Virus record (IMG/VR): IMGVR_UViG_3300044712_002117
Coordinates: 1 to 25,113 of that record
Strand: one strand, 5' to 3'
Source: a virus
Length of the DNA: 25,113 bases
Shown here: one piece after another, positions 926 to 25,063 of the stretch
Layout of the letters: every line of letters starts with the position of its first letter
How positions within the stretch are numbered: the first letter of the stretch is position 1
Notes under the pieces: generated by a model
The model's input: the letters and a program-made list of their open reading frames with translations, nothing else
What the model was told of the DNA's origin: nothing
The model's database searches: none
Program-made: the position numbers and the translations under genes

Positions 926-2736
926 AAAGGTTCATCCTCCAGGGTCGCACTTTCGAACGCAGTGTCACTCAATACCGCCATCCATGCCGTTGTATCATCA
1001 AGCGTTGCATATTCGATAGTAGAAATATTGATCATAGCAACACCAAATTTCAGATCATTTAATCCAACACTCTCGGCGATCATTGTGGAAAGCACTGCGA
1101 TCCCAAACCGGACGGTCTCAGCAATATTATGGATATATTCCAAAGCGCCATCAAGGATTGGCAAACTTCCTGCGACTAGTTTATTAATCTGCTTTGCAAC
1201 AGTTCCGGCCCTCGCAATAATCACACCATCCAGCGACTTGCTCGCAAGCTTGATGGGTGTGCCCGATAAAGACAATGTGCCGCTCAAAGATCGATTGCTG
1301 CTCTTCTGAATACTGCCGTTGATCAGACCTATGGATCCAGCCAAAGCGACCAACCTGGTACGGGCACTATTAAGTGTGCCTATGATCGTAGTGATCGCGC
1401 CGCTCAATGACCGGTTGCTGCGCTTTACAATATCGCCGGCAATGGTCGCCAGTGCTCCGCTGGCTGAACGACTGGTTCGCTTTGCAACCGCACCGGTGAT
1501 CGTTCCAATGGAACCACTCAGCGATCGTAAATATGCCTTGGTACTGCTCAGTGTGCCAACAAGCGTGGCAACGGCTCCACCCAAAGCCCGGTTGATCTGT
1601 CTGGTGTTCGTGCCTGCGATCGTGGAGACCGCACCTGAAACAACCTTGTTGTCACGTTTGGCAAGCGTGCCGACGATCACAGAGATCGATCCGCTCAGGG
1701 AAACCAGGCGGGTGCGGGTCGCTGCAAGCACACCTACGATCGTTGCAACGGCTCCGCTTAATGCCCGGTTGGTCTGCCTGGTGCTTGTGCCTGCGATCGT
1801 AGAGACCGCACCTGAGACGATCTTGTTATCTTGTTTGCTTAACGCACCGGTGACAGTTGCAACGGCTCCACTCAAAACTTTGTTGGCACGTTTGACAAGT
1901 ACGCCGACAACCGTGGCGACCGCGCCGGCGAGTGCCCGGCTGGTTCGCTTGTTGGCTGTGCCTGCAATGGTCGCAAGCGCTCCACTCAAAATCTTGTTAT
2001 CGCGCTTCACAAGTGCGCCGGTCAATGTAGCGATCGCGCCGCTCAAAACTTTGTTATCTTGCTTGATGAGCGCACCAGTCAACGTTGATACGGCTCCGCT
2101 CACCGATTGGTTATAGGCTGTGCCTGAAGCAGGTCGCAACGCCATGACGATCGCAGCCCACGCGCGTGAGGCTCCGAAGTTGTAATCCACGGTCCCGGTC
2201 GCGCCGGCGGTTGCAAAAATGCCGTCATTCGCTTCCAGTTTCTTTCCGCCGATCTCTGCGATCTCAGTGACCAGTGCGCTGTTCTCGGTGATGGTCGTAG
2301 TGCCGGAATTGATCCCAACCGCCACGTGCAGCATGGCATTATTGGTGACGGTCGTGATACCAGTTGCGCTTGCTGAGGTAGCCGCCGCGCCATCCGAGAT
2401 GACCGGCGTCGCCTCCATTTGCGTGGACGCATCGATGCCGGTATAGGCTGTGCAGACCATCCCGGATGCGACCGAGTTGACCGAGGTGACCGTGAATGTT
2501 GCGCCTTCGGTGCCGTCCAGTTTTTTGTAGGCTGAATAGACTTTTGGGTTGCTCTGTCCTGTATTAGGACCATAAGCGGTGAAACCCGTGGGCCAGGTCA
2601 GTGTGCCGGGAGTGCCATTGAAGGCAATATCCAGGACTACCACATCGCCCGCAGCCACACTTGCCGGCTTGTTGATAGCGTGGCTGGTGGTTGCGGTAGA
2701 GTTGGCTTGCGATGTGAAATTGCCACGGGCAGCCAT
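922..2736 (-). CDS. Repeat-containing tail/fibre protein (about seventeen 19-21-residue repeats)
   Basis: The protein has 604 residues in three parts. Residues 1-205 form a beta-rich, Thr/Ala/Gly-rich domain resembling phage or surface adhesion modules. Residues about 208-534 are a tandem array of about seventeen units of 19 residues (some 21, one 18) with the consensus SGAxATxxG followed by a polar (K/R)xx(N/S)(K/R) stretch. The last ~70 residues are non-repetitive. Such short Gly-containing rungs suggest a beta-solenoid or fibrous shaft, so a tail fibre or side-tail protein is the best guess; this is inference from the repeat, not from a named family. No strong ribosome binding site precedes the ATG. 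It sits between the putative baseplate proteins and the last small gene, and overlaps the latter by four bases. Confidence 0.8.
   Translation of the reverse strand: MAARGNFTSQANSTATTSHAINKPASVAAGDVVVLDIAFNGTPGTLTWPTGFTAYGPNTGQSNPKVYSAYKKLDGTEGATFTVTSVNSVASGMVCTAYTGIDASTQMEATPVISDGAAATSASATGITTVTNNAMLHVAVGINSGTTTITENSALVTEIAEIGGKKLEANDGIFATAGATGTVDYNFGASRAWAAIVMALRPASGTAYNQSVSGAVSTLTGALIKQDNKVLSGAIATLTGALVKRDNKILSGALATIAGTANKRTSRALAGAVATVVGVLVKRANKVLSGAVATVTGALSKQDNKIVSGAVSTIAGTSTRQTNRALSGAVATIVGVLAATRTRLVSLSGSISVIVGTLAKRDNKVVSGAVSTIAGTNTRQINRALGGAVATLVGTLSSTKAYLRSLSGSIGTITGAVAKRTSRSASGALATIAGDIVKRSNRSLSGAITTIIGTLNSARTRLVALAGSIGLINGSIQKSSNRSLSGTLSLSGTPIKLASKSLDGVIIARAGTVAKQINKLVAGSLPILDGALEYIHNIAETVRFGIAVLSTMIAESVGLNDLKFGVAMINISTIEYATLDDTTAWMAVLSDTAFESATLEDEPL
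1135..2115 (-). repeat. Tandem 57-63-bp coding repeats, with three-unit super-repeats
   Basis: About seventeen imperfect units encode the shaft of the repeat protein. From unit 3 on they group in threes: a unit with the core TIAG, one with (V/I/L)VG or IIG, and one with a V(T/V)G, ITG or INGS core, the third being 21 residues in copies 2-4. This makes four consecutive blocks of 57-59 residues, so the array probably grew by duplicating three-unit blocks after the single unit had diverged. Boundaries are approximate because the terminal units are degenerate. Confidence 0.8.
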
Positions 2737-2747
2737 AGATCAGATCG

Positions 2748-3374
2748 TTATCCGCCGGCTGTGAAGGTCACGGTGTAGGTGAATTGGATCGAGTCACCGG
2801 AGACGACGTTGATCGCAGAGAACAGGGAACGGTCGAACAGGACTCCGCCGCCTGTCGCAGCTTGCGAGAAGATCCCGTGTTCAGTGATCGCGGCTGAACC
2901 GTCGAAGGTCACGGTGCCAACGGTCTGAAACGCATTTGCAGCGGATTCCGTAAGTGAGCCGGTCGCGCGGGTGCTATCCGGGTTCAGTGCGGTCGTGCTT
3001 TCGGTGACCAATGCTGTATCACCCGAGGCTTCCGCGGTTCCACCGGTGCCCACGCCGTGGTATTTCATGTTCTCGAGTTCAACTATGTTCTGCCAGGCAT
3101 CCACGATGTAACCGACGCCGACAGATGTCACGACGCGATTGGACAACACGCCGAGGTCGTGCTCCTCGCCATTGTGCTTGATGTACTTGCCGCGCAATTC
3201 GCTGGTAAATACCGCAATGCCAAAAGTGCGATTGATCAGGCACGCCAATTGCACTTGCAGCCAGCCCCACCAGAAGCCCAGGCGCAGCCGGTTGCGGACT
3301 GCGTAGGTCGAAGGGTTGAAGGCGGGTATCTTTTTGATGCCGAGATTTCCAAATAGATTCAATGTTCTGTTCAT
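2748..3374 (-). CDS. Tail-module structural protein, function unknown
   Basis: A 208-residue protein with the start set at the ATG at 3374, which has AAGGAG seven bases upstream; the longer reading from 3437 would overlap the small gene at 3386-3547 and is rejected. The central part (YHGVGTGGTAEASGDTAL, then ITEHGIFSQA) looks like a phage virion protein that recurs next to tail-fibre genes: a Gly/Thr-rich beta domain with a conserved HG(V/I) pattern. An N-terminal segment with RLGFWWGWLQVQLA is aromatic and hydrophobic but too short and interrupted to call a membrane helix. Context between fibre-like genes suggests a distal tail component. I do not recognise a named family. Confidence 0.75.
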   Translation of the reverse strand: MNRTLNLFGNLGIKKIPAFNPSTYAVRNRLRLGFWWGWLQVQLACLINRTFGIAVFTSELRGKYIKHNGEEHDLGVLSNRVVTSVGVGYIVDAWQNIVELENMKYHGVGTGGTAEASGDTALVTESTTALNPDSTRATGSLTESAANAFQTVGTVTFDGSAAITEHGIFSQAATGGGVLFDRSLFSAINVVSGDSIQFTYTVTFTAGG

Positions 3375-3385
3375 GATGATTCTCC

Positions 3386-3547
3386 TTAGGGTAATGGATT
3401 TATGTAATCCAATGGTTGATCTTGCCGCGAGTTCCATTCCTGAAACTCAATAAAATCCTTGTTCGTTTCTGCAATTGGAATAAATGCTCCATCCGTGAGA
3501 CGCAGAACACAAACTGGCAACCCTTGATCATAGATAATTTCATACAT
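3386..3547 (-). CDS. Small 53-residue phage protein (tail-fibre-associated)
   Basis: A complete frame of 53 codons runs from ATG at 3547 to TAA at 3386. It starts two bases after the stop of the upstream fibre-like gene and has a GGAG about eight bases before the ATG. Its stop overlaps the ribosome binding site of the next gene, so it fits tightly into the operon and otherwise the interval would be empty. The protein begins MYEIIYDQGL and contains FIPIAETNKDFIEFQEW; this 'I...N.D...F..W' pattern resembles the tail of small phage proteins encoded beside fibres and some fibre-assembly proteins. Function is unknown; a chaperone or small baseplate part is possible. Confidence 0.68.
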   Translation of the reverse strand: MYEIIYDQGLPVCVLRLTDGAFIPIAETNKDFIEFQEWNSRQDQPLDYINPLP

Positions 3548-4719: not shown

Positions 4720-4863
4720 TCAACAGACTTGTTTCATAATATCGCACCAGATTAACCACAAAATCGGGTGCCAAAATATACAGCCAAATATCATCGTAAA
4801 AGCGATCAACCAGATCGTTGCAATAGCCAGTTGCTGCTTATGCTGTCTGAACCATCTTTTCAT
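4720..4863 (-). CDS. Small 47-residue membrane protein
   Basis: A complete 47-codon frame runs from ATG at 4863 to TGA at 4720, filling the gap between two tail genes: the upstream gene stops at 4867 and the next ATG is 12 bases downstream. The first eleven residues are basic (MKRWFRQHKQQ); residues about 12-40 form one long hydrophobic, Trp/Ile-rich helix; the tail is DIMKQVC. This is the layout of a single-pass, N-in small membrane protein. A holin-like or membrane-docking role is possible, as no other lysis gene is visible, but nothing proves it. The ribosome binding site is weak (GAG only), so coupling to the upstream gene is likely. Confidence 0.6.
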   Translation of the reverse strand: MKRWFRQHKQQLAIATIWLIAFTMIFGCIFWHPILWLIWCDIMKQVC

Positions 4864-4866
4864 GGT

Positions 4867-5487
4867 TTACTCTACATATGCCATTACAAGCAACCTGCCC
4901 GAATCAACCACATTCGGATCGGTATCTGCCTGGCATTGCAATTTGATCGTGCGTACACCAGCTGCAACACCGGAAAGCCGGTAGAAATAGGAAAGACCCT
5001 CATTTCTAAACCCCCCACCGTTTTTCTGATTATTTGGGGATGCATCAGCAGTGCCATTAATGTTGCCGCGCACGTAAAAAATACGACCAGTCGTAGCGTT
5101 GTATCCTGTAATCGTCGCGAAAATGAAGATAGTGCAGGTATACGCTAAGGTCAAATTCAATGTGGCGCCAGAGATATCAGCCCAACCGCCTGAGAAGGAT
5201 TGTCCACCGGGTGCAAAATCTGCTGAACTGGATTTGTGCAACAAACCTGGAATGTTATCTGTTGCAAGATAATCAGGCACCCCGCTCGATTTATTACGTA
5301 GAAACGAATTCACAGAGGGCTTCGCCAGCGCGCTTAAATATGCGCCAGCGGGATCGCGATAGGCAATATCACCTGCAGCGGCATATGGAAAGAGCACGCC
5401 CAAAGCAGTGCTAATTTCATTCATCTTGCTTGCGCTCACGCGTTCGCTTGCCACCCAAACTCGGGGTGTGGGCCAGGTACTAGGCAT
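4867..5487 (-). CDS. Phage tail/baseplate structural protein, unknown specific role
   Basis: The protein has 206 residues. The N-terminus (TWPTPRVWVASERVSASKMNE) matches a common opening of phage virion proteins, in which a W-x-x-(G/S)E-x-V-(T/S)ASKMN stretch precedes a hydrophobic ALGVLFPY segment. The C-terminal half (about residues 100-206) is beta-rich with a GWADISGATLNL strand and an arrangement resembling a receptor-binding head or C1q/TNF-like trimer domain; this second point is only suggested by strand pattern. The ATG has GAGGAG upstream and overlaps the preceding gene by eight bases. Its place between the distal tail protein and the fibre suggests a baseplate or fibre component. 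Confidence 0.75.
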   Translation of the reverse strand: MPSTWPTPRVWVASERVSASKMNEISTALGVLFPYAAAGDIAYRDPAGAYLSALAKPSVNSFLRNKSSGVPDYLATDNIPGLLHKSSSADFAPGGQSFSGGWADISGATLNLTLAYTCTIFIFATITGYNATTGRIFYVRGNINGTADASPNNQKNGGGFRNEGLSYFYRLSGVAAGVRTIKLQCQADTDPNVVDSGRLLVMAYVE

Positions 5488-5872
5488 TCATTACTCCTCG
5501 TTCGATGTTCTCGTTGATCAGGTCTTCAAGCGGCACACCCTGCCACCAATTGCGACCGTCGCGGGTACGCACGCGCAGGATGCGCTCGATCTCAGCTTTC
5601 TCTTCAGGGAAGATCACCTCGTAAGCCTCTCCCGCTGCAATGGCGGCTTGAAGCGTTTCCGCCCGCAACACCAGGTCTGCCACAGAGTTGAACGCACCAG
5701 CGATCCGTGGATTGGGTATAAGCGCCATCGCTAATAGATTCGGATGTTCTTCCGGGCAGACGAAGATATCACCTGGCTTCACCTCCAACGCAGACTGTAT
5801 ACCTTCCAGCAGGCACCTGGGACATTTGGCGACCCAACGAGCATAGTTATATTCAGCGTAAACTTTTTCCAT
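5480..5872 (-). CDS. Phage protein with CxxC zinc-ribbon-like N-terminus
   Basis: The protein has 130 residues. An N-terminal CPRC and, about 20 residues later, CPEEH could form a small zinc-binding knuckle (three Cys and one His). The rest is helical (NSVADLVLRAETLQAAIAAGEAYEVIFPEEKAEIERIL) and ends with RNWWQGVPLEDLINENIERGV, a 'NWW...DL..EN...G' ending that recurs in small phage tail-module proteins. The role is unknown; baseplate or assembly factor by context. It begins three bases after the distal tail gene ends and overlaps the next gene by eight bases. Confidence 0.72.
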   Translation of the reverse strand: MEKVYAEYNYARWVAKCPRCLLEGIQSALEVKPGDIFVCPEEHPNLLAMALIPNPRIAGAFNSVADLVLRAETLQAAIAAGEAYEVIFPEEKAEIERILRVRTRDGRNWWQGVPLEDLINENIERGVMNA

Positions 5873-5875
5873 AGA

Positions 5876-7483
5876 TCATCCAAATGCCAGGATGGTATTG
5901 GTGCCATCCAGGTCATCTTGTCCCAGTGTATCGAGTGTGAAAAACAATCCGCTCTCCACTTGCTGCGCCGGGGTAATAAACAAACGTTCCTCGATGTAAT
6001 TCCCGCCATTCCAGATTCTGATCTCGCGTCCAATTACGATCATCGTATAAGCGATGCCGGTCACGCTTTCGCTGACACTAATGAGCTTGCCTGGCTTGCA
6101 GACCATCAATTTGTTAAAGGAGTCATCATCCAGAACTGGCAAAAATTCCAGAGATGGCACATCGGTCACTTCGACGTCGTACCACGTCAGCAGGTTGTCG
6201 GCGATCTCTTTGCCGGTATAGTAGCTGGCATGATAGGGCAGGTCATAATCGACCTTCACTCCAGCGCCCTGTTTCACTGCACTGTCGATCGCGTTGTAAG
6301 TGATTGAGTCGTACGGATAAAGACCTTTGCCTTTGATATCCAGCTGCAGATAACCTAATGATCCACCGGTGTTTGTCAACTTGATAAACGCTGCACGGCT
6401 CCCCACGGTGAATGTGTTGAGCGCCAGAAAGGCATTCAGATTGCCAGAGCCTGACCCAGCTACCGAACTGAATACTGCCTCGGTGCCCACCACCGGCGTT
6501 TCAACTGCCACTGCCGCGATACTGCGCGAGCTGTTGCCATTCGGATCACGGAAGAACGCTACAAACTCAACGCTCTGCCCGGCTGGGATGGACAACTCTT
6601 CTGTCAACGAATACAGCACCACCACGGCAGCATCCGGGACCTGTGGATATACCGTGGTCGTCACCTGGCGCACACGTCGGTTGGCTTTACGACTGGCGCC
6701 CATATCGATTTGCTGATCCACGAATGACGCCACGGCATCGGCGGTCGTGAGTAGACTGTAGAGATCCACATAGGTGAGGATCTCGCCGCTGGTGGTTCCG
6801 CCCGTAATGAAGATGCGCGCCAGCCCGCATTGTGCTAGGCGTTGTAGAACAGCGAGCACGCTGGTCTTGCCGTCTTCCACATCGGTCAGACAGTATGGAT
6901 AGGTATAGGCGCCCACTGCCAGATCAGTTTCCACTGGCGCATCGTCCATAGCATCGACAATGGTCTGAATCACCTGATCATCCGTGACACTTTGTTGGAC
7001 TGCGATGCGCGGCATCGAGCCTTCGCGCCCTGCCACTTCGATCCAGTCAGCCACGGTCACCATCACCGTTTTGTTGCTGAGCAAGCCTGGCACAGGATCC
7101 ACGCCGATGACGCGGCCTTGTGAAAACCATTCCTTCACGGCGTCCTTGGTGATACCCACGCGCACTCGGGAGCCAATACCGAACGAATAGCGTTTCGCGC
7201 TATGGTCAGGCGAGTAGTACCCCACTACGCCGCCGCTGTTCGAATCGCTGTTGTTTACCACCAATTTGATCGTGCCCACATCCGCCACCCGGTCCTTGAT
7301 ATTGCCATTGCGTTGACCCTGGAAGATCGTGATCGGTGTTTCGGTTACAACATCCGCCTGAAAATCAACCCAACCTGTATCCAGGATCGGTGCGCCAGTC
7401 ATATCCAAGATGGGCGCACCAGTCATATCCAGGATGGGTGTACCGCAATCGATCTCGACATGGAGGGCATCAGGGACGGTCAT
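5876..7483 (-). CDS. Distal tail / baseplate hub-like protein
   Basis: A large, beta-rich protein of 535 residues immediately downstream of the tape measure, the usual place of the distal tail (Dit) or tail-associated (Tal) hub protein. After an unusual repeat-containing N-terminus (residues 15-37), residues about 50-130 (NRNGNIKDRV..., then GSRVRVGI, FSQGRVIGVDPVPG) look like the beta-barrel that such proteins use to build the ring; residues 160-280 and 400-520 contain further strand-rich domains resembling hub/baseplate folds. No peptidase or lysozyme motif is seen. Its ATG overlaps the tape-measure stop as TAATG, so the two are coupled. The assignment rests mainly on position, length and composition. 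Confidence 0.72.
   Translation of the reverse strand: MTVPDALHVEIDCGTPILDMTGAPILDMTGAPILDTGWVDFQADVVTETPITIFQGQRNGNIKDRVADVGTIKLVVNNSDSNSGGVVGYYSPDHSAKRYSFGIGSRVRVGITKDAVKEWFSQGRVIGVDPVPGLLSNKTVMVTVADWIEVAGREGSMPRIAVQQSVTDDQVIQTIVDAMDDAPVETDLAVGAYTYPYCLTDVEDGKTSVLAVLQRLAQCGLARIFITGGTTSGEILTYVDLYSLLTTADAVASFVDQQIDMGASRKANRRVRQVTTTVYPQVPDAAVVVLYSLTEELSIPAGQSVEFVAFFRDPNGNSSRSIAAVAVETPVVGTEAVFSSVAGSGSGNLNAFLALNTFTVGSRAAFIKLTNTGGSLGYLQLDIKGKGLYPYDSITYNAIDSAVKQGAGVKVDYDLPYHASYYTGKEIADNLLTWYDVEVTDVPSLEFLPVLDDDSFNKLMVCKPGKLISVSESVTGIAYTMIVIGREIRIWNGGNYIEERLFITPAQQVESGLFFTLDTLGQDDLDGTNTILAFG
7373..7441 (-). repeat. Short 24-bp in-frame tandem repeat
   Basis: Residues 15-37 of the distal tail protein consist of (T/A)PILDMTG repeated twice and then a third, partial APILDTG. 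The DNA units are nearly identical, which points to recent slippage or unequal recombination. Copy number could vary between relatives. Confidence 0.9.
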
Positions 7484-15803: not shown

Positions 15804-17849
15804 TTATCTCCATGCTGTGATCATGCAATCACAGCCATCGTGGGCGGGCGGATGCCCAATATCGTTATTAACTCGCAGGGGACTATCAGCACCTTCCGGC
15901 TGGTAGCTTTCACCGGAAGCAATAAAGGTTTGTTCGACGCCCACCACGGCGCCATCCAGGTTGGAACAATACGGGCAGGACTTGTTGAACGAACGCCAGC
16001 GGATCTTCACGAAGCCTGCCGCCACATACACCATGCGTGCAGTGGCATTGTTCTCACGCGTAGACTCCAGCCGTGCGATCTCATCCGCACGCACATCCTG
16101 ATATGCATCGAGTGACTCATCCAATGCAGCGATCGGGTCTTCAGTCTCCAGCGCTGCCTGGATCCGCTTGCGAACATTCTCCAAGCTGATACCGGCATGC
16201 CGTGCTGCGTACATGTTGATGTAACTACGCACGAAGCGGTCCACCTGGTCGTTGAATTGTCCATCGGTAGCATTCACTTCATCGCCTGCCACACCAGCTA
16301 CCATATCGGCATAGGCGCTCATCACCGGTGTGAATTGACGTCGCACCAGTTCCTCATGCCGCTGGTAATATTGGTTGAGCCATAGATCCATTGATTGCGC
16401 ATCGCGCTTGCCTAAGCTCTTCTTGGCGGCATCCATCACATCGCGCATCTCGCGTCGTAAGACTCTCGCCGCCGTGTCGCGGAAGACCTTGCGCTGCGAT
16501 AACATCATGCGCCTGCGTGATGCCGCTGAGCGATTGGAGCGCAACTCACGATCATCAACAGTAGCAGCAGTGGCTCGTGTCTCAATGACTGGCGCATCTG
16601 CTCCACCGAGGTATCGCAATCCAGTAGAGTTATTTCCATCAACCGGCTGACTTAATTGATCAATAGTCGCCAAGTTGAGCGGAGCGAGATACACGTCACC
16701 ACCTTTGTATGGGTTCATGTTCTCTTTTTCACGGGCTTCGTTGGGGGATAAGAAACCCGTGGTTATACCTTGCACGAAAGCGGTGTAACGAGTTGCCAGA
16801 TCTGCACGCAGCAGGGCATCCACCAGGTGTTCAGCAAAATAGGTTTTGCGTTCGGTTGGGGTTAGCAAACTGCGGGAGATCTCCTGCTCCCAACGCACGA
16901 ACCAGGGCTGCATCGTGTACTTGATAAAACGTTCCCCGAATTGTTCAACGCTGGCATACGTCGCAGCTTTATCGCTTTCCGCCAGCATATCAAGCGAGAT
17001 ACCATACAACCGCGCGATGTCGGCGGTACCATATTGCAAGATACTTAAGAGTTCGGAATCTTTGTTGTCGACCCCAAGTTTTTCAACGCTCAAACCGTCT
17101 TCCAAAATGGCAAGCCGATGAGCATTCTCCAGCCCACGATGACGCGCTTCCCAATCACCCTTGATGCGTAAATAGGCTTTGTCGCTCAACTCTTTATCGC
17201 TCTTGAGAACAATGCCTGGCTCAGCGTTGTTGCCAAAGAAACGCGCGATATATTCCTGCACAGCCATTGACATGCCGATGGAGTGACGTGACTGTTGAAT
17301 CGGACTCAATGCCCATAAGCCATTGGTGGTGAACCAGCGTATATGCAGAATGTGATCTGAGGGCAGCCCCACATCCTGACCGCCTACTGAATCGGGCAAA
17401 GTGTAGATATAAACCAGCTTGCCATTGACGCGTTCCATTCGACGGACTTTGTCAGGGTTGAGCGGCCAGAGATACTTCACCCGCCCGGCATTATCGAACT
17501 CGATCTCGGAGAGTCCATTACCACGCAATGCCACATGTCCGGTGATCGTCTGCCGATAGGTCATGGCAGTCATCTCGGGGTTGGAAACTTCTCGCAGAAT
17601 GGGATATAGGTAATAATCATGAGCGCGGGTTTGCCCACGTTCCAGGCGTTTATAGGTGATCAGCGGCAGCATTGCTTCAACGTCTGAAAGTAACCGCACG
17701 CAGGAGAGTACACTCATATTTTGCAGAGCTGTCTCAGGCGTGACTTCCACACCGCTGTTCGTGTCCCACCCATACGCAGAGCGCAGCCAGCTAGGTGGCT
17801 CACTGCTGGGATGGAAACGTTTCTGCACCATGCTTGGATTCGGTAACAC
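15804..17849 (-). CDS. Portal protein fused to a MuF-like head morphogenesis domain
   Basis: The protein has 681 residues. Residues 1 to about 400 are an HK97-type portal: VLSCVRLLSDVEAMLPL near the start, TGHVALRGNGLSEIEFD, the DHILHIRWFTTNGLWALSPIQ motif, NNAEPGIVLKSD, and the YASVEQFGERFIKYTMQPWFVRWEQEISRSLL helix. From about 440 to 681 there is a helical region ending in a MuF-type C-terminus: W-x-SFNKSCPYC-SNLDG (Cys 625, 628) and IGHPPAHDGCDC (666-675), with the Cys/His spacing of that family. Portals normally stand alone with MuF as the next gene; here both are in one frame. The start is GTG at 17849, right after the previous TAA, with GGAG nine bases upstream. Confidence 0.92.
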   Translation of the reverse strand: MLPNPSMVQKRFHPSSEPPSWLRSAYGWDTNSGVEVTPETALQNMSVLSCVRLLSDVEAMLPLITYKRLERGQTRAHDYYLYPILREVSNPEMTAMTYRQTITGHVALRGNGLSEIEFDNAGRVKYLWPLNPDKVRRMERVNGKLVYIYTLPDSVGGQDVGLPSDHILHIRWFTTNGLWALSPIQQSRHSIGMSMAVQEYIARFFGNNAEPGIVLKSDKELSDKAYLRIKGDWEARHRGLENAHRLAILEDGLSVEKLGVDNKDSELLSILQYGTADIARLYGISLDMLAESDKAATYASVEQFGERFIKYTMQPWFVRWEQEISRSLLTPTERKTYFAEHLVDALLRADLATRYTAFVQGITTGFLSPNEAREKENMNPYKGGDVYLAPLNLATIDQLSQPVDGNNSTGLRYLGGADAPVIETRATAATVDDRELRSNRSAASRRRMMLSQRKVFRDTAARVLRREMRDVMDAAKKSLGKRDAQSMDLWLNQYYQRHEELVRRQFTPVMSAYADMVAGVAGDEVNATDGQFNDQVDRFVRSYINMYAARHAGISLENVRKRIQAALETEDPIAALDESLDAYQDVRADEIARLESTRENNATARMVYVAAGFVKIRWRSFNKSCPYCSNLDGAVVGVEQTFIASGESYQPEGADSPLRVNNDIGHPPAHDGCDCMITAWR

Positions 17850-18352: not shown

Positions 18353-18705
18353 GGTTTTCCAAAGGTGATGGTGGCTGCGCCGGTCAACAAGGACCAGATC
18401 AACCCGATCATCGAAACGCCAAAGATGGTGGCAACCCAGACGCCGATCTGATACCCGAGCCACATCACATTAACCTTCTTTTTGACATCGTCCACGTCCG
18501 TAGAAAGCGTGGACATGTTTTTGCTCATGGACACATAGCCATTTTCAGCAGCGCTGACGCGATCCTTCATATTCATGATCACGGTCATCGCATCTCGCAG
18601 GACTGTGAAAGCAAAACGGAGACCGATCTTGGTCGAGAGATCGTCTTGCTCAAGTAAGTCGTCGATCTGCTGAAGCAGATTGTCGTTGCTGGATGCTGGT
18701 GCCAT
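18349..18705 (-). CDS. Coiled-coil protein with C-terminal membrane anchor (XhlA-like layout)
   Basis: The protein has 118 residues. Residues 1-75 are helical and charged, with a heptad-like stretch ending in SKNMSTLSTDVDDVKKKV; a single hydrophobic helix of about 25 residues follows (LGYQIGVWVATIFGVSMIGLIW), then a short tail. The order coiled coil, helix, short tail is like the XhlA group of lysis-associated phage proteins, though the sequence is not convincingly the same family. The ATG overlaps the upstream stop as TAATG. With its neighbours it forms a small membrane-directed module. Confidence 0.68.
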   Translation of the reverse strand: MAPASSNDNLLQQIDDLLEQDDLSTKIGLRFAFTVLRDAMTVIMNMKDRVSAAENGYVSMSKNMSTLSTDVDDVKKKVNVMWLGYQIGVWVATIFGVSMIGLIWSLLTGAATITFGKP

Positions 18706-19037
18706 TACGCTTTAAATGTCTCGATCGCACGCGCTAAATGATGAATGGCTTCAGCCAAAGCGCTCGGCACTTCTTCCAGGCTGATCACATCCACATATTC
18801 GATGCTGCCATCCGCTTCCCTCACGCGGACCCACTCAGGCTTGGTCGGGTTTTGCGGGACGAGGCGTGCGTAAGGCACACCATTGATGTTATGAATGCTG
18901 TAGGCTTGCAATTGTTTTCCCACTGCTTCTGTGCGCAACCGGATCGAGCCATCCGACTCTGCTCGCGGAGTATCTCGCACGATCAAGCCGCGCGGCTGTT
19001 TGACGATCAATAGAAATCTTGGTGCTTCTTGTGCCAT
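18705..19037 (-). CDS. Possible SH3-like domain protein, first gene of the small membrane module
   Basis: A 110-residue protein. Two adjacent ATGs at 19040 and 19037 follow AGGAG at 19047-19043; the second has the better spacing. The stretch FLLIVKQPRGLIVRDTPRAESDG..., with a later PEWVRVREADGSIEYVDV, resembles a bacterial SH3 domain (LxVRxxP, then a W-V-x-V strand), which often binds cell wall or peptides. The C-terminal ~25 residues form an amphipathic helix. It is about 18 bases downstream of the terminator of the structured RNA, so its expression probably needs read-through or an antitermination step. The SH3 assignment is tentative. Confidence 0.68.
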   Translation of the reverse strand: MAQEAPRFLLIVKQPRGLIVRDTPRAESDGSIRLRTEAVGKQLQAYSIHNINGVPYARLVPQNPTKPEWVRVREADGSIEYVDVISLEEVPSALAEAIHHLARAIETFKA

Positions 19038-19056
19038 CATTACTCCTGTTATGTGC

Positions 19057-19095
19057 AAACAAAAACGCCCGACGACTCATGTGAGTCGTCGGGCG
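19057..19095 (-). terminator. Intrinsic terminator
   Basis: A 14-bp perfect stem (arms CGCCCGACGACTCA and complement at 19066-19079 and 19082-19095, with TG at the plus-strand centre) is followed on the minus strand by GTTTTTGTTT, a U-tract. There is no U-tract on the plus side, so it works for minus-strand transcripts. It ends the small RNA and probably reads from the two-gene cassette, and lies just upstream of the first late small gene. Confidence 0.9.
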
Positions 19096-19187
19096 CATCA
19101 GTTCCGACTAGCGTCCCGGTCTACACCAGGACTGCATAAATTATATAAATGTGGCGAGCGGCTTGAGGGGGGCAAGTCGCCCACCAC
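19057..19187 (-). ncRNA. Candidate structured small RNA (about 130 nt), three hairpins
   Basis: A self-contained transcription unit. From the predicted start G19187 the RNA forms (1) a 15-bp stem, GTGGTGGGCGACTTG with 19165-19151, loop CCCCCCT; (2) after an A/U linker, a 7-bp stem GTCCTGG/CCGGGAC with a 6-base loop at 19132-19113; (3) the 14-bp terminator stem. Stem 1 contains two G-U pairs and one A-C mismatch read as minus-strand RNA; read as plus strand the wobbles become C-A mismatches, so the minus strand is the folded one. There is no open frame of useful size. I do not recognise an RNA family. Its G19187 start coincides with the first stem base, as expected for a real RNA 5' end. Confidence 0.72.
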
Positions 19188-19193
19188 AAAAAT

Positions 19194-19222
19194 AGTTTAG
19201 CATTTTGAATTTAATATGTCAA
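19194..19222 (-). promoter_or_regulatory. Promoter of the structured small RNA
   Basis: A perfect -35 TTGACA (19222-19217), a 17-base spacer, and -10 TAAACT (19199-19194; four of six consensus bases). The predicted start is six to seven bases on, at G19187, the first base of stem 1. Unlike the two promoters at 20710-20848, the spacer holds no GAAC-N4-GTTC palindrome. Confidence 0.7.
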
Positions 19223-19279: not shown

Positions 19280-19744
19280 CTATTTATTATCTTTTCTGGA
19301 TGTATTATGATTTTCGAACTGCAAAATCACAAAGACACTATTTGCTGTGTCATACAAAATATAAATAGCATACGAGAAGATGGCAACCAAGATTACTTCG
19401 GTAATGAAGGTCACTAATGGATAGTTCGTACTGATCAATGAACTTGATCCGATTACTTGGGTGATAAGAGCAAGAACTACTAAGGCGATTTGTTCAGCAA
19501 TAGAAGCTTTCATCTCTTTAGCCGTTCGAGAAAAATCTCCTCCAAGCTGATCTGATATTTCTCGAATTTTAGTCAACACAACACTTATTGTAGTTGTATT
19601 GATTGCCACTAATGCAATTAATAATGTAATCAAATTCTCAGACAAAAATTTTGAAATGAAATTGGATTGCAGTTGATGATCCAGCCAAGTAATCAAAATG
19701 CCAACCACAAGGAACAAACTTATATTTTTTGCGTGCTCCATCAT
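19280..19744 (-). CDS. Four-helix membrane protein of AT-rich two-gene cassette
   Basis: The protein has 154 residues. Hydrophobic helices are at about 8-22, 36-58, 83-98 and 108-131; between helices 2 and 3 is a charged cytoplasmic loop with KIREISDQLGGDFSRTAKEMKAS. The end, NHNTSRKDNK, is polar. The ATGATGG start overlaps the stop of the upstream gene as ATGA, so the two are made together. Base composition is much more AT-rich than the phage genes on either side, a sign of recent acquisition. The pair looks like a lysogenic-conversion cassette; a membrane effector of an anti-phage or superinfection-exclusion system is one possibility. No family recognised. Confidence 0.75.
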   Translation of the reverse strand: MMEHAKNISLFLVVGILITWLDHQLQSNFISKFLSENLITLLIALVAINTTTISVVLTKIREISDQLGGDFSRTAKEMKASIAEQIALVVLALITQVIGSSSLISTNYPLVTFITEVILVAIFSYAIYILYDTANSVFVILQFENHNTSRKDNK

Positions 19745-20604
19745 TGCAACATCTTCCTTAATTGATCAACCAAATCTTCCGGGATGTTCTCGCCAGTAAA
19801 ATATATCTCATCTACTTCGGTTGATTTGATACTGTCCTCTGTTTTAATTAATTTTCTCAGCCCCTTGATTTTCAGATGTACTGTTCCCCCTCCTTCCGAA
19901 GCGTAATTAACTAGACTATTAGTGAAACTGTCACTTTCTGATAATGTCAACGACTCCTTATTTGGGGCCTGCAATGAAACATTCGTATGTAGTGAATTCG
20001 TTCTGCTTTTTATTTCTCCTAAATCCAATTCTAGTCCTTTAGATATATTAGCTAAATTAGGCGCAACCATATAAAATTGCGTCTTTGTAATTCGATTAGT
20101 ATGACTTTTAACAATATTCCAAAATTCGTTCTTTACAAACGTGGGAAGTACTTCTAATGTCAATCTGTAATTACGGAGTTTGTCATTTATATTTGAGATT
20201 AGAATATTGGAAACTGTTGACGTTCTATAAAAAGCCTCTTCTTCAAGTTCTATCGCTATCATTTGGCTATTTGGATCATTATTTATAACCACATAGACGG
20301 ACGGCCAGTTGTCAATTTCCTCCTTTTCAAAATCCTTTGTAAATCTGGTCAAGCTCCTATTTGCACCAATTTTCAGAACAAAGTACCCATTAACTTCATG
20401 AAGTTGATGAGTTAGTTCTGCTCGTGGATGATGGAATTCATTTAGATTCCGAATTACATCAGCAAAAAATTCATTTTTTCTGCTCTTTAATTCTTCTAAA
20501 CTCAATATTTGCTTTTGAGGGAAAAATAGGTCTAATTGTTCTTCGACGATAGTTGGCAGTATTTGAAACCGATACAACTGGAATGTGCGGCTGGTCTTAT
20601 TCAT
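19741..20604 (-). CDS. Unrecognised protein, putative partner of the four-helix membrane protein
   Basis: A 287-residue protein from ATG at 20604 with AAGGGG about eight bases upstream; an earlier ATG at 20652 overlaps a TATAAT and has a weak site. It has no membrane segment. Residues 1-110 start FQLYRFQILPTIVEEQLDLF, with a Lys/Glu-rich helix and a VVINNDPNSQMIAIE strand-turn; residues 130-185 have NDKLRNYRLTLEVLP and FYMVAPNLANIS; residues 230-260 have NYASEGGGTVHLKIKG, like a nucleotide- or nucleic-acid-binding beta element; the end is helical. I recall this kind of protein as a stand-alone family with conserved L.RFTKDFEKEEI.NWP.V.VVINNDP but cannot name it. It is AT-rich and driven by tandem LexA-box promoters. 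Confidence 0.75.
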   Translation of the reverse strand: MNKTSRTFQLYRFQILPTIVEEQLDLFFPQKQILSLEELKSRKNEFFADVIRNLNEFHHPRAELTHQLHEVNGYFVLKIGANRSLTRFTKDFEKEEIDNWPSVYVVINNDPNSQMIAIELEEEAFYRTSTVSNILISNINDKLRNYRLTLEVLPTFVKNEFWNIVKSHTNRITKTQFYMVAPNLANISKGLELDLGEIKSRTNSLHTNVSLQAPNKESLTLSESDSFTNSLVNYASEGGGTVHLKIKGLRKLIKTEDSIKSTEVDEIYFTGENIPEDLVDQLRKMLQ

Positions 20605-20709: not shown

Positions 20710-20738
20710 ACTATAACAGAATATTTGTTCTATGTCAA
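20710..20738 (-). promoter_or_regulatory. Promoter B with LexA-like operator in spacer
   Basis: -35 TTGACA (20738-20733), 17-base spacer, -10 TATAGT (20715-20710). The spacer holds AGAATATTTGTTCT at 20718-20731, a palindrome with one mismatch in its five-base arms and the core of the Gram-positive SOS box. It points at the AT-rich cassette, leaving about 100 bases of leader. Regulator (host LexA or phage repressor) is inferred. Confidence 0.75.
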
Positions 20739-20773
20739 ACAAGCTGTTATGTTTGCTTTCTCAAATATTAAAC

Positions 20774-20812
20774 GACAAACGCCGGGGTGAGGGGGGCACC
20801 CAAGCGCTTGTC
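20774..20812 (-). promoter_or_regulatory. C-loop hairpin at the 5' end of the promoter A transcript
   Basis: A 16-bp stem (GACAAGCGCTTGGGTG with 20789-20774, two G-U wobbles and one U-C mismatch in minus-strand RNA) closes a CCCCCCT loop. The first base, G20812, lies at the expected start site of promoter A. Loop and stem length match stem 1 of the small RNA at 19151-19187. It could be the start of a second small RNA or a 5' leader element of the two-gene cassette mRNA. Confidence 0.75.
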
Positions 20813-20819
20813 ATTTAGG

Positions 20820-20848
20820 ATTTTAGAACAAACGTTCTGTTTTGTCAA
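20820..20848 (-). promoter_or_regulatory. Promoter A with perfect LexA-like operator in spacer
   Basis: -35 TTGACA (20848-20843), 17-base spacer, -10 TAAAAT (20825-20820). The palindrome AGAACAAACGTTCT at 20825-20838 lies in the spacer and matches GAAC-RNRY-GTTC exactly, the Gram-positive SOS box. The promoter begins just after the end of the gene at 20857-21087 and drives the leader hairpin and probably the AT-rich cassette. Confidence 0.8.
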
Positions 20849-20856
20849 GGGTGGTT

Positions 20857-21087
20857 TTATCCTCTGACGTATTCGCCTGTGTGGTGCAGTTGGTCGCGTA
20901 TACCAGTCAGCGTCTCTGCAATACTTGCCAGATCCCCCACGTGGCACCAGTTGTGACCACCCTGACAACTGGCATCACGATCATGCTTCTGCATTCCAGC
21001 TGTGATCTGCTTCAGCAATTTTGCGATCTCGGCTTGTTTCTGCTCATATTCTTTCAGTGCATTTCGACTCTCAAGTGTGTGGTCCAT
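20857..21087 (-). CDS. Small phage protein with Cys/His motif
   Basis: A 76-residue protein from the ATG at 21087, which has AGGAG six bases upstream; upstream readings extend past this. The first 35 residues are a charged helix (ALKEYEQKQAEIAKLLKQI) and the second part carries CQGGHNWCHVGDLASIAETLTGIRDQL. The C-x3-H-x2-C-H-x-G-D motif could bind a metal, and a (H/N)-W-C-H-V-G-D core occurs in small phage proteins I have seen next to packaging genes, with no known role. It lies directly downstream of the large terminase and before promoter A. Confidence 0.72.
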   Translation of the reverse strand: MDHTLESRNALKEYEQKQAEIAKLLKQITAGMQKHDRDASCQGGHNWCHVGDLASIAETLTGIRDQLHHTGEYVRG

Positions 21088-21160
21088 AGTGGCTCCTGTT
21101 ACCTTCATTACCCCTCTCAATGCGACTAAAGTCAAGTAATTTATTAGCGAGCATTTGGGC

Positions 21161-22873
21161 TTATCCGATCATCCGCATGCCGCGCTTTTCGTAGACACTT
21201 TTAACTTCCGGATGACGTAATGCTAGGTCAATCGCCATGATCAACGCTACCATCCCGTCGATCTTTTCGCGGCTCGCAGCTTTGTCTGGCTTGATGTTCC
21301 CGGCTGGGTCCATGCGTGCGACCAGGTTATCAGCCATCCATGTGAGCACCGGGTTGTTGCCATGTCGTATCTTTTTACCAAGCACCAAACGTTCCAGCTC
21401 TTTCATGGGTGGGTTCATACTCGCGAAGCCTTGTCCAAATTGTGCCATTGTCATGCCTTTCTTTTCGAGTACCTGCACCACACGAGCTGCTCCCCAACGG
21501 TCGAAGGCGCTTTGGTCGATATCGAACATCTCGCGGTCCTTTTCGATCTGCTCGAAGATCCAGTCATAATCGATCACGTTCCCTGGCGTGGCTTCGATAT
21601 AGCCCTGCTCAACCCATTGTCGATAATGCACACCATCATCGCGGGTGCGGATCAGCATGTTATCCTCCGGGATCCAGAAGCGACAGATCACGTCAATGTA
21701 ATCATCGTCATCTGGAAAGACCATAACGAATGCTGTAATGTCTGATGTGCTTGATAAATCCAAGCCTCCATAACAAGTCATATCCTTCAGCCGCTTGGGC
21801 ATTTCCAAGGCAGGAACTTCACCTGCGCACTCACGCCAGCGGTCCATCGGCATCCACTTGATCTCGCCCTGCACCCACACATTCAACTCACGCCGTAGGA
21901 AGTTGTTGAGCGCCGCTGCCATCTGCTCGGCGCGCTTGGCTTTCATACGCAGATCCTCGATATATTTTGAGACTCCCAGGTTGGGGTTGGCTTTGATCCA
22001 CACGCTTTCATCGCGCCAATCATCCCCATCATCGAGGGTGTAGATGATGCCGAACCAGGTATCGTCTTCGAATGATCCGTCTTTCCAGCCCTCGAGTACC
22101 TTACGGGTGTATTCGTGTTTCTCATAACACACACTGCGACGGTCAATGCCAGCCGTAGTGATGGCGATGATCATTGGCTGTTCACGCGAGCCAGTCGCAG
22201 TCTCAAGCACATCCCACATCTCACGCGACTTCCAGGCATGGAGCTCATCAGCCACGACTCCGTGGACGTTAAGTCCGTCCGTAGAATCCGAGTCAGCTCC
22301 CAACGGTTCGTATTTGCTGGCGGTTGCTTCGAGATTGAGATTATCTTTATAGACCTTGATGTACTTCCGCAGCCCAGCATTTTTACGGACCATACGGATC
22401 GCTTCTTTATGCACGATGCGAGCTTGATCCCGTTTCGTCGCAGCGCTATATACTTCCGCGCCTGGTTCGCCATCTGCAAACGCCAGATACAAACCTTCAC
22501 CACTCGCCTCTGTGGATTTTCCGTTCTTCCTTGCGACCTCTTTGTAAATAACACGGAAGCGCCGCATCCCATCGGCACGCATCCAACCAAACGCCACCCA
22601 GATCGTGAATTGTTGCCACGGTTCGAGCCGGATAAAGTCACCCTTCCCACGTCCCCACTTCCCCTTGGAATGCCGGAGCATTTGAATGAAGTCGATAACG
22701 TATTGGCCTGCTGCTGCATCAAAGTAAAAACCGCGCTCATGCGCATGCTCAAGGTCGTGCACGTGACGTTCGCATGCCAGGCGCACCCACTTGCATGCGA
22801 CGATCTTGCCGTTGATTACATCCTGTGCATACTGTTCAGCAGGATGTAGAACCTCCTTCGTTGACTTTGTCAT
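21161..22873 (-). CDS. terL: Terminase large subunit
   Basis: The protein has 570 residues. N-terminal ATPase: adenine-binding region LEPWQQFTIW (about 83-92), Walker A-like VARKNGKST (113-121), Walker B GVVADELH (205-212, catalytic Glu 210), coupling motif ITTAG (238-242). C-terminal nuclease: Asp in GGLDLSS (about 372), an Asp in FDIDQSAFDRW (about 458), and Asp in REKIDGMVALIMAIDLAL (about 539). It powers DNA packaging through the portal and cuts the concatemer. The protein is of the TerL group associated with HK97-type heads and P27 small subunits. The start has no strong ribosome site and begins five bases after the small terminase stop, so coupling is likely. Confidence 0.96.
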   Translation of the reverse strand: MTKSTKEVLHPAEQYAQDVINGKIVACKWVRLACERHVHDLEHAHERGFYFDAAAGQYVIDFIQMLRHSKGKWGRGKGDFIRLEPWQQFTIWVAFGWMRADGMRRFRVIYKEVARKNGKSTEASGEGLYLAFADGEPGAEVYSAATKRDQARIVHKEAIRMVRKNAGLRKYIKVYKDNLNLEATASKYEPLGADSDSTDGLNVHGVVADELHAWKSREMWDVLETATGSREQPMIIAITTAGIDRRSVCYEKHEYTRKVLEGWKDGSFEDDTWFGIIYTLDDGDDWRDESVWIKANPNLGVSKYIEDLRMKAKRAEQMAAALNNFLRRELNVWVQGEIKWMPMDRWRECAGEVPALEMPKRLKDMTCYGGLDLSSTSDITAFVMVFPDDDDYIDVICRFWIPEDNMLIRTRDDGVHYRQWVEQGYIEATPGNVIDYDWIFEQIEKDREMFDIDQSAFDRWGAARVVQVLEKKGMTMAQFGQGFASMNPPMKELERLVLGKKIRHGNNPVLTWMADNLVARMDPAGNIKPDKAASREKIDGMVALIMAIDLALRHPEVKSVYEKRGMRMIG

Positions 22874-22878
22874 TCACG

Positions 22879-23355
22879 CTATTTCGCAACCTTCACTTTT
22901 TTGCCAAATAAAAATTCTGCCATCTCATCTTCTTCGGTGGGCGTTTCTACTTTCAATCGTGTCCGGCTCGATGGTGACATGCCGAACTCTGCATAGAATT
23001 TCATTACCTGATCCATTGAGCGCTTCTTGATCGCCACCCAGGGGTTTTGGTACATGCCGCCCAGGTCAGAGATGATCACATCACCTTGGATATGCAGCTT
23101 GTTGCACGCCTTCACATAATCTGCCCAGGCGGTGCAGCAGATCGCCAGCGCCGCACGATCGATCTTCGAGATCAACTTCAGCGCATGCAACTCCTTGGTA
23201 AGTCGTTTCCATTCTTCACGTGCCACGCCCTTCAAATGGTCGGGGCATTCTGGAATCGCAACATCTGGCTTTGGCTCCTGTTCATTCACCGCGCGTTTGC
23301 CCGGGTTCCCCTCGAGTTCTTTTATTACACTAGGCTTTGGTTTTCTGCCCCTCAC
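22879..23355 (-). CDS. terS: Terminase small subunit, P27 family (copy 1)
   Basis: A 158-residue protein with the P27 small-terminase opening RGRKPKPSVIKELEGNPGKRAVNEQEPKP, followed by P.CPDHLKG.AREEWKRL and the central YVKACNKL...NPWVAIKKRS helix, ending in FGMSPSSRTRLK. It recognises the packaging start and loads the large subunit. It starts with GTG at 23355, overlapping the methyltransferase stop as GTGA, and directly precedes TerL, the usual order. A second, similarly sized P27 gene is on the other side of the methyltransferase. Confidence 0.93.
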   Translation of the reverse strand: MRGRKPKPSVIKELEGNPGKRAVNEQEPKPDVAIPECPDHLKGVAREEWKRLTKELHALKLISKIDRAALAICCTAWADYVKACNKLHIQGDVIISDLGGMYQNPWVAIKKRSMDQVMKFYAEFGMSPSSRTRLKVETPTEEDEMAEFLFGKKVKVAK

Positions 23356-24590
23356 GTCACCTCCAAGGTGGGTTGTTCCCCAACCATCTGGGACCAGCGT
23401 TCCAGAGTGACTGCTACAAATTTCGGTTCATTGTCCATCGTGCGGCAGACTCGCCCCAATCGTTCACATGCAACCAACGTTGTCCCGGATCCTGCAAATA
23501 GATCGAGCACAATATTTCCAGGCTTGCTGGAGTTCGTCATAGATCGCTCCACCAGTTCGAGTGGTTTCATAGTGGGATGTTCCTCACTCTTTTTTGGGCG
23601 ATCAATAAACCACACGTCAGATTGTTTACGATCTTTCAATTCCTGCAGCCGCGCTGCGTCCCCATTCCAGCCGTACCACATGGGTTCGTATTGTGTGTGA
23701 TAATCTTTTCGTGACAAAACCAATTGATCCTTGCACCAGATGATGGTGCTAGACCAGTGAAATCCACGGGTCCGCAACCAGCGATCAATCAATGGCCATT
23801 CCTGGGCGCCCATCACTACATAGACTGGCGCGCCTGGCTTGCTGAATTCCATCATCAGGCCGGTAAATTTTTCGACAAAGAAATCGAAGTGCGGCCCGAG
23901 GTTGTCATTATTGATCGTGCGTACTTTGTAGCCTTGGACGTTTCCTTTTTCCACTGCACCATAATTGACATTCCAAGGCGGATCACTCCAGATCATCTCT
24001 GCGAGATCTTCTCCCATCAACCGTCGTACATTCGTTCTGATCGTTGAATCCCCACACATCAGCCGATGCTTTCCAAGCAACCAAACCTGTCCAACTTTGA
24101 CCTGCCATTTAGCGAGCAGCTCTTCAGCCAGGTCCAGCTCCGGACCGGGATCCTCCACGGTGGGATTTGTTTCTGTAGAAACACCCACCAGCTCCTCCAA
24201 TTCAGCTGGTTCGAAGCCGGTAAATAAATCACCAGTGGTGCTGGCTATCTCGCGCAATACATCTTCATCCCAACGACTGAATTCACCCACACGGTTGTCC
24301 GCAATTCCAAACGCTGCGGCTGTCATTGGGTCATCGTCCACGAAGACCACGGCCACATGACTCCAACCCAGCTCCCTCGCTGCGCGATAGGTGCCATTGC
24401 CTGCCTCGATCTTCCCATCCTGCAAGCGGTTGGCAACGATAGGCTTACGTTGCTTATAAGCTTTGAGCGAAGCCGCGATGCGTGCCACATCATGATCCAC
24501 GCGCGCGTTGGCGGGGTCTTCGTGCAGGGTTTCAATCGGTACAGCCAGTGGACACAGACTTTCGGCGATGTAAGTTAATTCTTCAGTCAT
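23352..24590 (-). CDS. ParB-domain DNA methyltransferase (N4/N6 type)
   Basis: The protein has 412 residues. Residues about 15-100 are a ParB/Srx-like N-terminal domain (AASLKAYKQRKPIVAN..., EAGNGTYRAARELGW), residues about 160-400 are an N-4 cytosine / N-6 adenine methylase: motif DPPW at 203-206, FAGSGTT at 365-371 near the C-terminus, with EHPTMKP (about 337-343), the order of the beta class. It would methylate phage or host DNA, for example to avoid host restriction or mark the packaging site. The ParB part may give site specificity. It overlaps a small terminase gene on both sides by four bases (ATGA and GTGA), so all three are translated together. No restriction partner is seen. Confidence 0.92.
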   Translation of the reverse strand: MTEELTYIAESLCPLAVPIETLHEDPANARVDHDVARIAASLKAYKQRKPIVANRLQDGKIEAGNGTYRAARELGWSHVAVVFVDDDPMTAAAFGIADNRVGEFSRWDEDVLREIASTTGDLFTGFEPAELEELVGVSTETNPTVEDPGPELDLAEELLAKWQVKVGQVWLLGKHRLMCGDSTIRTNVRRLMGEDLAEMIWSDPPWNVNYGAVEKGNVQGYKVRTINNDNLGPHFDFFVEKFTGLMMEFSKPGAPVYVVMGAQEWPLIDRWLRTRGFHWSSTIIWCKDQLVLSRKDYHTQYEPMWYGWNGDAARLQELKDRKQSDVWFIDRPKKSEEHPTMKPLELVERSMTNSSKPGNIVLDLFAGSGTTLVACERLGRVCRTMDNEPKFVAVTLERWSQMVGEQPTLEVT

Positions 24591-25063
24591 TGTCCTACTC
24601 TCACTCTCGTTCCAAATAACATGCGCTCAAGTTCTTGATCAGGATCAGTCAAGTCTGTTTTGACTCTCGATCGACTACTAGGTGTCATGCCAAACTCAGT
24701 GCCTAGTTTATTGAGTTGCTCAAGCGCGCGATTGGCAATCGATAAATATGGATTTTGAATGATGTTCCCTGCAGCGGTCTTGATGATCTCGCCCTTATCG
24801 CGGACCATCTTTTCAGCCTTCAGCCAACGTACGAAGATCACGCAATACATCGCGAGCGCATCCTTATCGATTGTCGTGATCAAGCCGAGTGGATACAGCT
24901 CTTTGACTGTCAACTTCCACTTGGCTTTTTCATCATCACTCAAATGTTCCGGCGGCCGAGGCAACACGACTCTGGGCTTTGGCTCTGCATGGTTCAGCGC
25001 GCGCTTGCCTGGGTTGCCAGCCAGCAACTTTATTGCCGTTGGTTTTGGTTTTCTTCCTTGCAT
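24587..25063 (-). CDS. terS: Terminase small subunit paralogue, P27 family (copy 2)
   Basis: A 158-residue protein, equal in length to copy 1 and similar along its whole length: GRKPKP, GNPGKRA, EPKP, LGLI (or LKLI) then ID, GMTPSSRSR (or GMSPSSRTR), and a FG(T/K)(R/K)V(R/K)V end. It is the first gene of the window in transcription order. The ATG at 25063 has AGG about nine bases upstream, behind a run of nine Gs at 25074-25066. Either copy could be the working subunit; copy 1 is next to TerL. Duplication followed by divergence, or acquisition of a second P27 gene (some HNH-linked P27 proteins exist), would both explain it. Confidence 0.9.
   Translation of the reverse strand: MQGRKPKPTAIKLLAGNPGKRALNHAEPKPRVVLPRPPEHLSDDEKAKWKLTVKELYPLGLITTIDKDALAMYCVIFVRWLKAEKMVRDKGEIIKTAAGNIIQNPYLSIANRALEQLNKLGTEFGMTPSSRSRVKTDLTDPDQELERMLFGTRVRVGQ

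Follow-up and report, generated by a model that had tools for sequence, protein, structure and literature searches.

Gene neighborhood of the promoter pair

The window analyzed here (the whole stretch of DNA under study, a 25,113-base IMG/VR virus record) carries a packaging and head gene cluster within which a pair of promoters, hereafter P1 and P2', is located. Along the minus strand, the terminase large subunit gene (terL, 21161..22873, PF20441 and PF03354) is followed by a 92-amino-acid gene, g92 (20857..21135, minus strand), which lies directly upstream of P1 and marks the place behind terL where a hairpin RNA element (HP) is conserved. Further along the same strand come P2', a two-gene AT-rich cassette, a third promoter, a second hairpin, a leader-like RNA (RNA2), a 117-amino-acid gene (18705..19058) that directly follows RNA2 in the cassette-free relatives L002, L004, L007 and L008, and the portal protein gene (15804..17849, PF04860) that starts the head gene block. 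The most probable host belongs to the Anaerolineae, because TerL relatives occur within Anaerolineae genomes (at up to 61% identity) and HP is found only in Chloroflexota. This phage also has two terminase small subunit genes (Terminase_4, at 22879-23355 and 24587-25063, both minus strand), which flank a DNA methyltransferase whose N-terminal part is ParB-like.

Two promoters with LexA-type boxes

P1 (20820..20848, minus strand) reads TTGACA-AAACAGAACGTTTGTTC-TAAAAT and P2' (20710..20738, minus strand) reads TTGACA-TAGAACAAATATTCTGT-TATAGT, both with a 17-nucleotide spacer and with 110 bases between the starts of their -35 elements. The original prediction had described two promoters of identical geometry pointing the same way, one with a perfect LexA-like palindrome in its spacer and the other with a one-mismatch copy, and this description holds: the window has three copies of TTGACA-N17-TANNNT, compared to 0.12 predicted from shuffled sequence, and none of 100 shuffles reached three. 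The third copy (19222-19194) was absent from the original list. The perfect box AGAACAAACGTTCT lies at 20825-20838 in P1 and the one-mismatch box AGAACAAATATTCT at 20718-20731 in P2', with the small correction that the upper (P1) box is not confined to the spacer, as it overlaps the first T of the P1 -10 hexamer.

Apart from the P1 box, the window has no exact AGAAC-N4-GTTCT (0.02 expected), and allowing one mismatch adds the P2' box alone. One could still suppose that everything here is ordinary and that the boxes are chance matches in AT-rich promoter DNA, as the window shows no excess of sites when up to two mismatches are allowed (seven in total, 7.8 expected). However, the simulated chance that a given AT-rich promoter has a box with no more than one mismatch is only ~3e-4, and a fortuitous origin is already contradicted by the comparative data below, in which the box is kept in 19 phage promoters and present at host lexA and recA, so that we consider it barely credible.

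The probable LexA box of Anaerolineae

LexA-repressed promoters of the Gram-positive type, with GAAC-N4-GTTC as operator, are known from Bacillus subtilis and mycobacteria (PMC3323433). The same box was found at the host genes where the original prediction had proposed to look for it. Among nine Anaerolineae genomes in which lexA was identified (reached via TerL or HP loci), seven have an exact GAAC-N4-GTTC inside the -35/-10 spacer of the lexA promoter, for example TTGACA-C-AGAACAAGCGTTCG-GT-TATCAT, and the register of P2' (TTGACA-T-AGAACAAATATTCT-GT-TATAGT) equals that of this host promoter. The recA promoters carry a one-mismatch box (GAAC-N4-GTGC or GTAC) in the promoter core in 6/7 genomes, and these substitutions, AGCAC or AGTAC when read on the other strand, also occur in phage P1 boxes. 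At large, exact GAAC-N4-GTTC occurs 10 times in 836 kb of host DNA; as there is no general enrichment, the lexA and recA boxes represent specific sites. A scan of seven hosts with the pattern TTGACA-N4-GAAC-N4-GTTC returned no lexA matches, because the host box sits closer to the -35 element.

Our literature search found no experiment on this host LexA. The predicted SOS box of the Anaerolineae, a large and hardly studied bacterial class, is derived here from sequence, together with its apparent use by phages of that class. The phage promoters resemble the Gram-positive LexA promoters in the palindrome and its spacing, in the overlap of the box with the promoter core and in the presence of the box at host lexA and recA, and differ from them in that the host belongs to the Chloroflexota and that P1 drives a structured RNA. 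At two host loci (L144 and L193), a LexA-boxed promoter (TTGACG-AAAGAACATTTGTTCTGT-TATTAT), belonging to a small gene, comes directly after the host hairpin.

Conservation of the P1 box in sister phages

A TerL scan provided 80 relatives, and in those with P1 the promoter is at the same place, close behind the 92-amino-acid gene that follows terL. All 19 distinct phage P1 promoters (defined by TTGACA and TAAAAT) have a box with either no mismatch (4 cases) or exactly one (15 cases), a criterion that only ~8.5e-5 of random AT-rich spacers would pass; one additional copy has TTGAAA instead of TTGACA. The changes fall at fixed places of the box, giving the half-sites AGCAC, AGTAC, AGAAA or ATTCT. 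Perfect boxes occur exactly once in 9 of 18 phage records and never more often, and a reversed control pattern not at all. A few relatives (L012, L042, L082, L083 and L106) have HP behind a box-less promoter.

Taken together, the promoters of the host SOS genes and the sister phages argue that P1 is very likely under LexA control, as the original prediction had proposed for the pair, and the single mismatch in 15 of the 19 phage boxes suggests that repression may be weak. The boxes could instead be operators of a LexA-resembling phage repressor, as phages such as GIL01 encode LexA-like regulators (PMC6182141) and the window is incomplete, with the repressor region outside it. Against such a repressor, the box matches the host lexA and recA promoters down to minor variants, and sister phage records hold at most one perfect box each where repressor regions usually hold several operators; we therefore regard a phage-encoded repressor as improbable, and host LexA as the probable ligand.

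The original prediction had further placed the pair in control of the AT-rich cassette rather than of a packaging gene, which is only partly upheld. P2' is indeed the cassette's own promoter. P1, by contrast, belongs to the conserved hairpin RNA and is not mainly a cassette promoter, because HP holds the same place in sister phages that lack the cassette. As to packaging genes, in several sister phages (L101, L108 and similar) a LexA-boxed promoter is followed by a different start hairpin and a ~200-amino-acid gene heading the terminase block, so that SOS control of packaging genes is possible in this phage group. Considering all phages of this kind (L099-L106, L108, L110 and L082), the apex of this other start hairpin is mostly GCGGGCCCGC, and the ~200-amino-acid gene at the head of the terminase block follows in several of them. 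Since different start hairpins stand behind LexA-boxed promoters, the combination of an SOS promoter and a start hairpin appears to be a habit of this phage group.

A covarying hairpin behind P1, probably an RNA

The sequence right behind P1, GACAAGCGCTTGGGTGCCCCCCTCACCCCGGCGTTTGTC, is predicted to fold into a hairpin of -29 kcal/mol (z -7.3). This element, HP (20777..20818, minus strand), consists of a stem with the apex UGCCCCCCUCA followed by UUUAA, and the predicted transcription start lies at its foot; the corresponding covariance model matches positions 20764-20818 with 70.3 bits. The apex of 11 nucleotides (UG-CCCCCCU-CA) is fixed, and the stem varies by compensatory changes. Searching for this apex recovered 21 viral stretches and, among 84,980 bacterial and archaeal genomes, 113 stretches, 112 of which are in Chloroflexota records. 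Two of these stretches, L221 (Tabrizicola, outside Chloroflexota) and L203 (inside), have no stem and were rejected as chance matches. HP is thus kept in at least 111 Chloroflexota genome stretches, as well as at the same place in sister phages.

Across an alignment of 70 copies (A1), both partners have changed in 11 of 16 pairs, a covariation reached by 0 of 500 shuffles, and 96.7% of cells are paired compared to 81.6% in shuffles. The invariance of the apex in this alignment is partly built in, as the search pattern required it, and the model-based matches serve as the independent test: covariance-model matches beyond the reach of the pattern retain UGCCCCCCUCA although the base pairs beneath it differ (GG/CC, GA/TC, GT/AT). 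On the P1-transcribed strand, G-U pairs are frequent and A-C mismatches, their counterpart on the other strand, are rare, which points to an RNA of that strand. HP is very likely a functional RNA.

The hairpin might alternatively act as DNA, either as a mobile palindrome or as a protein-binding cruciform, with the promoter being incidental. There are several copies per genome, sometimes in tandem, as a DNA element could have, yet the promoter position is fixed, the G-U pairs are confined to one strand, and no common flanking sequence extends beyond promoter and hairpin. The first two of these observations led us to reject a mobile DNA element, and a role as DNA in general seems very improbable. 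HP was likewise rejected as a known Rfam RNA: none of the 4227 covariance models of Rfam 15 matched it at the gathering cut-off, a permissive search gave chance-level matches only, and literature searches returned no description of the element. A family spread over about a hundred genomes is therefore missing from Rfam, and it is tied here to a phage SOS box.

HP copies in host chromosomes

HP-bearing genomes have approximately one to six copies each (a few of the matches listed are opposite-strand readings of a hairpin already counted), and HP was present in 20 of 298 evenly drawn Anaerolineae genomes. The promoters in front of host copies differ in type (TTGCA...TAnTAATATT) and lack a LexA box, which suggests that the host RNA is not SOS-controlled in the way of phage P1. 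A promoter-like score of at least 8 of 12 at the right distance was obtained for 88% of 113 host copies vs. 31% of shuffles. The gene after the host hairpin is convergent in 62/114 cases, and an intrinsic terminator follows within 200 nucleotides in 37/116 cases (98/1130 in random control windows). With a promoter predicted for most copies, a next gene that is often convergent and a terminator in about a third, the host element fits a short stand-alone RNA, while some hosts (L115 and L222) have HP within the 5' leader of a gene, which fits a role in cis.

Tandem copies of HP within a few hundred bases were observed at eight loci (L120, L123, L130, L149, L157, L175, L198 and L214). The gene recN is near the host hairpin in 33 of 113 loci (e.g., L124, L126 and L160), in three arrangements: convergent at ~100 nucleotides, in the same orientation and upstream of HP, or ~2 kb off. 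No LexA box was seen in those 250-nucleotide stretches upstream of recN that could be examined; recN was consequently rejected as an SOS link for host HP and is reported as synteny only.

A third promoter, a second hairpin and a leader-like RNA

The third promoter (TTGACATATTAAATTCAAAATGCTAAACT, 19194..19222, minus strand) has no LexA box and is near-identical in L002, L004 and L008. At its predicted start lies a second hairpin (19151..19187, minus strand) with the apex UGCCCCCCUCA on a different stem, which the HP model matches weakly (E 0.0018). It is followed by RNA2 (19061..19135, minus strand; fold z -7.4), which has a 5' hairpin, a strong intrinsic terminator and, in addition, an alternative pairing that covaries. 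The covarying pairing (xCGG with CCGx) excludes the terminator stem, from which we infer that RNA2 is an attenuator-like late leader; no Rfam match was found for RNA2 of L010 or of the window.

In the cargo-free relatives (L002, L004, L007 and L008), the order is HP, promoter, a hairpin of the same apex on another stem, RNA2 and the 117-amino-acid gene. The window repeats the promoter-hairpin-RNA2 series at 19222-19061, separated from HP by a 1.5-kb AT-rich segment that contains P2' and two genes, and other relatives (L032, L041 and L089) have other genes at this place. As different genes are found there among relatives, the interval between HP and RNA2 is best described as a cargo site. Several phages (with second copies in L012, L016, L023, L029, L030 and L042) have RNA2 twice, once before the terminase block and once before the portal block. 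A comparable arrangement, in which late genes are preceded by a promoter, a short structured leader and a terminator, exists in the HK022 put sites and the late leader of lambda (pR'-tR'). The third promoter and RNA2 resemble it in layout and are not known to be related to it in sequence.

These surroundings invite another reading of the phage hairpin, namely that HP is a cis-acting 5' leader which stabilizes the P1 transcript or permits read-through of the RNA2 terminator into the head genes, in which case it would be similar in place to the HK022 put sites. HP is at the predicted start of the transcript, RNA2 with its strong terminator follows in most sister phages, a different hairpin stands directly behind the LexA-boxed promoters that head the terminase block, and in a few hosts HP closely precedes a gene, all of which would suit a leader. 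Most hosts, however, have a convergent gene after HP, often with a terminator ~30 nucleotides on, where read-through or mRNA stability would be useless, and the phages have a second promoter in the interval from HP to RNA2. We thus consider a leader function possible but rather unlikely.

A putative SOS-induced regulatory RNA

Overall, the explanation that best fits these observations, and one that we regard as reasonably likely, is that P1 is the SOS promoter of an Anaerolineae temperate phage which makes HP as a regulatory RNA acting in trans, with the cassette being raised by SOS as well. HP accordingly looks like an SOS-induced regulatory RNA. The promoter, box, hairpin, covariation and conservation come from sequence comparison, and LexA binding, induction and action in trans are deduced from them as follows. 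Host LexA occupying the -35/-10 spacer would silence P1 in the lysogen; upon DNA damage LexA would be removed and P1 would fire, giving a transcript that begins with the HP hairpin. The C-rich apex would allow this RNA to act in trans, whether by base pairing to G-rich sites or by contacting the partner that the host RNA uses, while P2', with its weaker LexA-type box, would drive the cassette, probably also raised under SOS conditions.

That the phage copy would be an SOS-induced trans-acting RNA is drawn from the occurrence of the same hairpin behind separate, non-SOS host promoters, often as a stand-alone unit; for action in trans taken by itself, we see the chances as evenly balanced. A scan for apex targets, using the G-rich Shine-Dalgarno-like GAGGGGGG before ATG, gave 79 sites vs. 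40 for the reversed pattern, a control that ignores purine-rich ribosome sites; an anti-Shine-Dalgarno role of the apex was set aside since this enrichment rests on an unsuitable control. It is tempting to speculate, with roughly equal chances of being right or wrong, that an RNA family with an invariant UGCCCCCCUCA apex and a varying stem is native to Anaerolineales, was taken up by temperate phages under LexA control, and is produced in a burst at induction. If so, the phage would mimic a host RNA regulator, boost it or titrate it when the lytic switch occurs. Were HP to act in trans, it would also provide a defined regulator for bacteria for which our literature search returned no small RNA, and an instance in which a phage has borrowed a host RNA for use at induction.

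Short phage RNAs under LexA control have a precedent in the OOP RNA of lambda, which is antisense to cII. HP differs from OOP in that it is not antisense to a neighboring gene and has relatives in host chromosomes. A close parallel for the promoter itself is GIL01 of Bacillus thuringiensis (PMC4551915, PMC6182141), in which host LexA boxes also lie in a phage promoter and phage transcription is SOS-controlled, but the P1 promoter of GIL01 governs early genes, with LexA acting jointly with the phage protein gp7, whereas here a hairpin RNA comes first and the surroundings are a late gene cluster.

The AT-rich two-gene cassette

The cassette comprises gene A (19741..20604, minus strand), of ~287 amino acids from its likely start at 20604 (303 from 20652), and gene B (19280..19744, minus strand), of 154 amino acids, which overlaps the end of gene A and has several hydrophobic segments (membrane segments judged by eye). 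Gene A gave no match beyond chance against Pfam, PHROG, PADLOC, NCBIfam and PDB, and AlphaFold models of it reached a pLDDT of 37 and 41, too low for fold comparison. No known family was found for gene B, and no gene A relative in 396 Anaerolineae genomes, an empty answer being weak in that search.

A ~290-amino-acid protein followed by a small membrane-like protein on a prophage recalls exclusion systems of the RexAB type (PMC11077077, PMC12894663), but gene A has no sequence match to solved RexA (PDB sequences) or to PADLOC and Pfam models, and a RexAB-like exclusion role is a guess by analogy. SOS control of the cassette through P2', suggested by its one-mismatch box, appears moderately likely.

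Homologous gene pairs that match the cassette in size and order were found next to the integrase in an E. coli prophage located at icd (present in 32 of 5426 genomes, with gene A at 25% identity), and also in a Vibrio tailless phage, with relatives of gene B being recognizable by position and size rather than by sequence. Gene order and size are thus kept in three unrelated elements, and by this comparison the cassette is a mobile two-gene module inserted between HP and RNA2 with P2' as its own promoter. In these other elements the module (~298 plus 154-161 amino acids) occupies positions 4752-6087 (L294) and 6001-7336 (L296) of the E. coli icd prophage stretches, and 2178-3543 of the Vibrio phage PQ189321.
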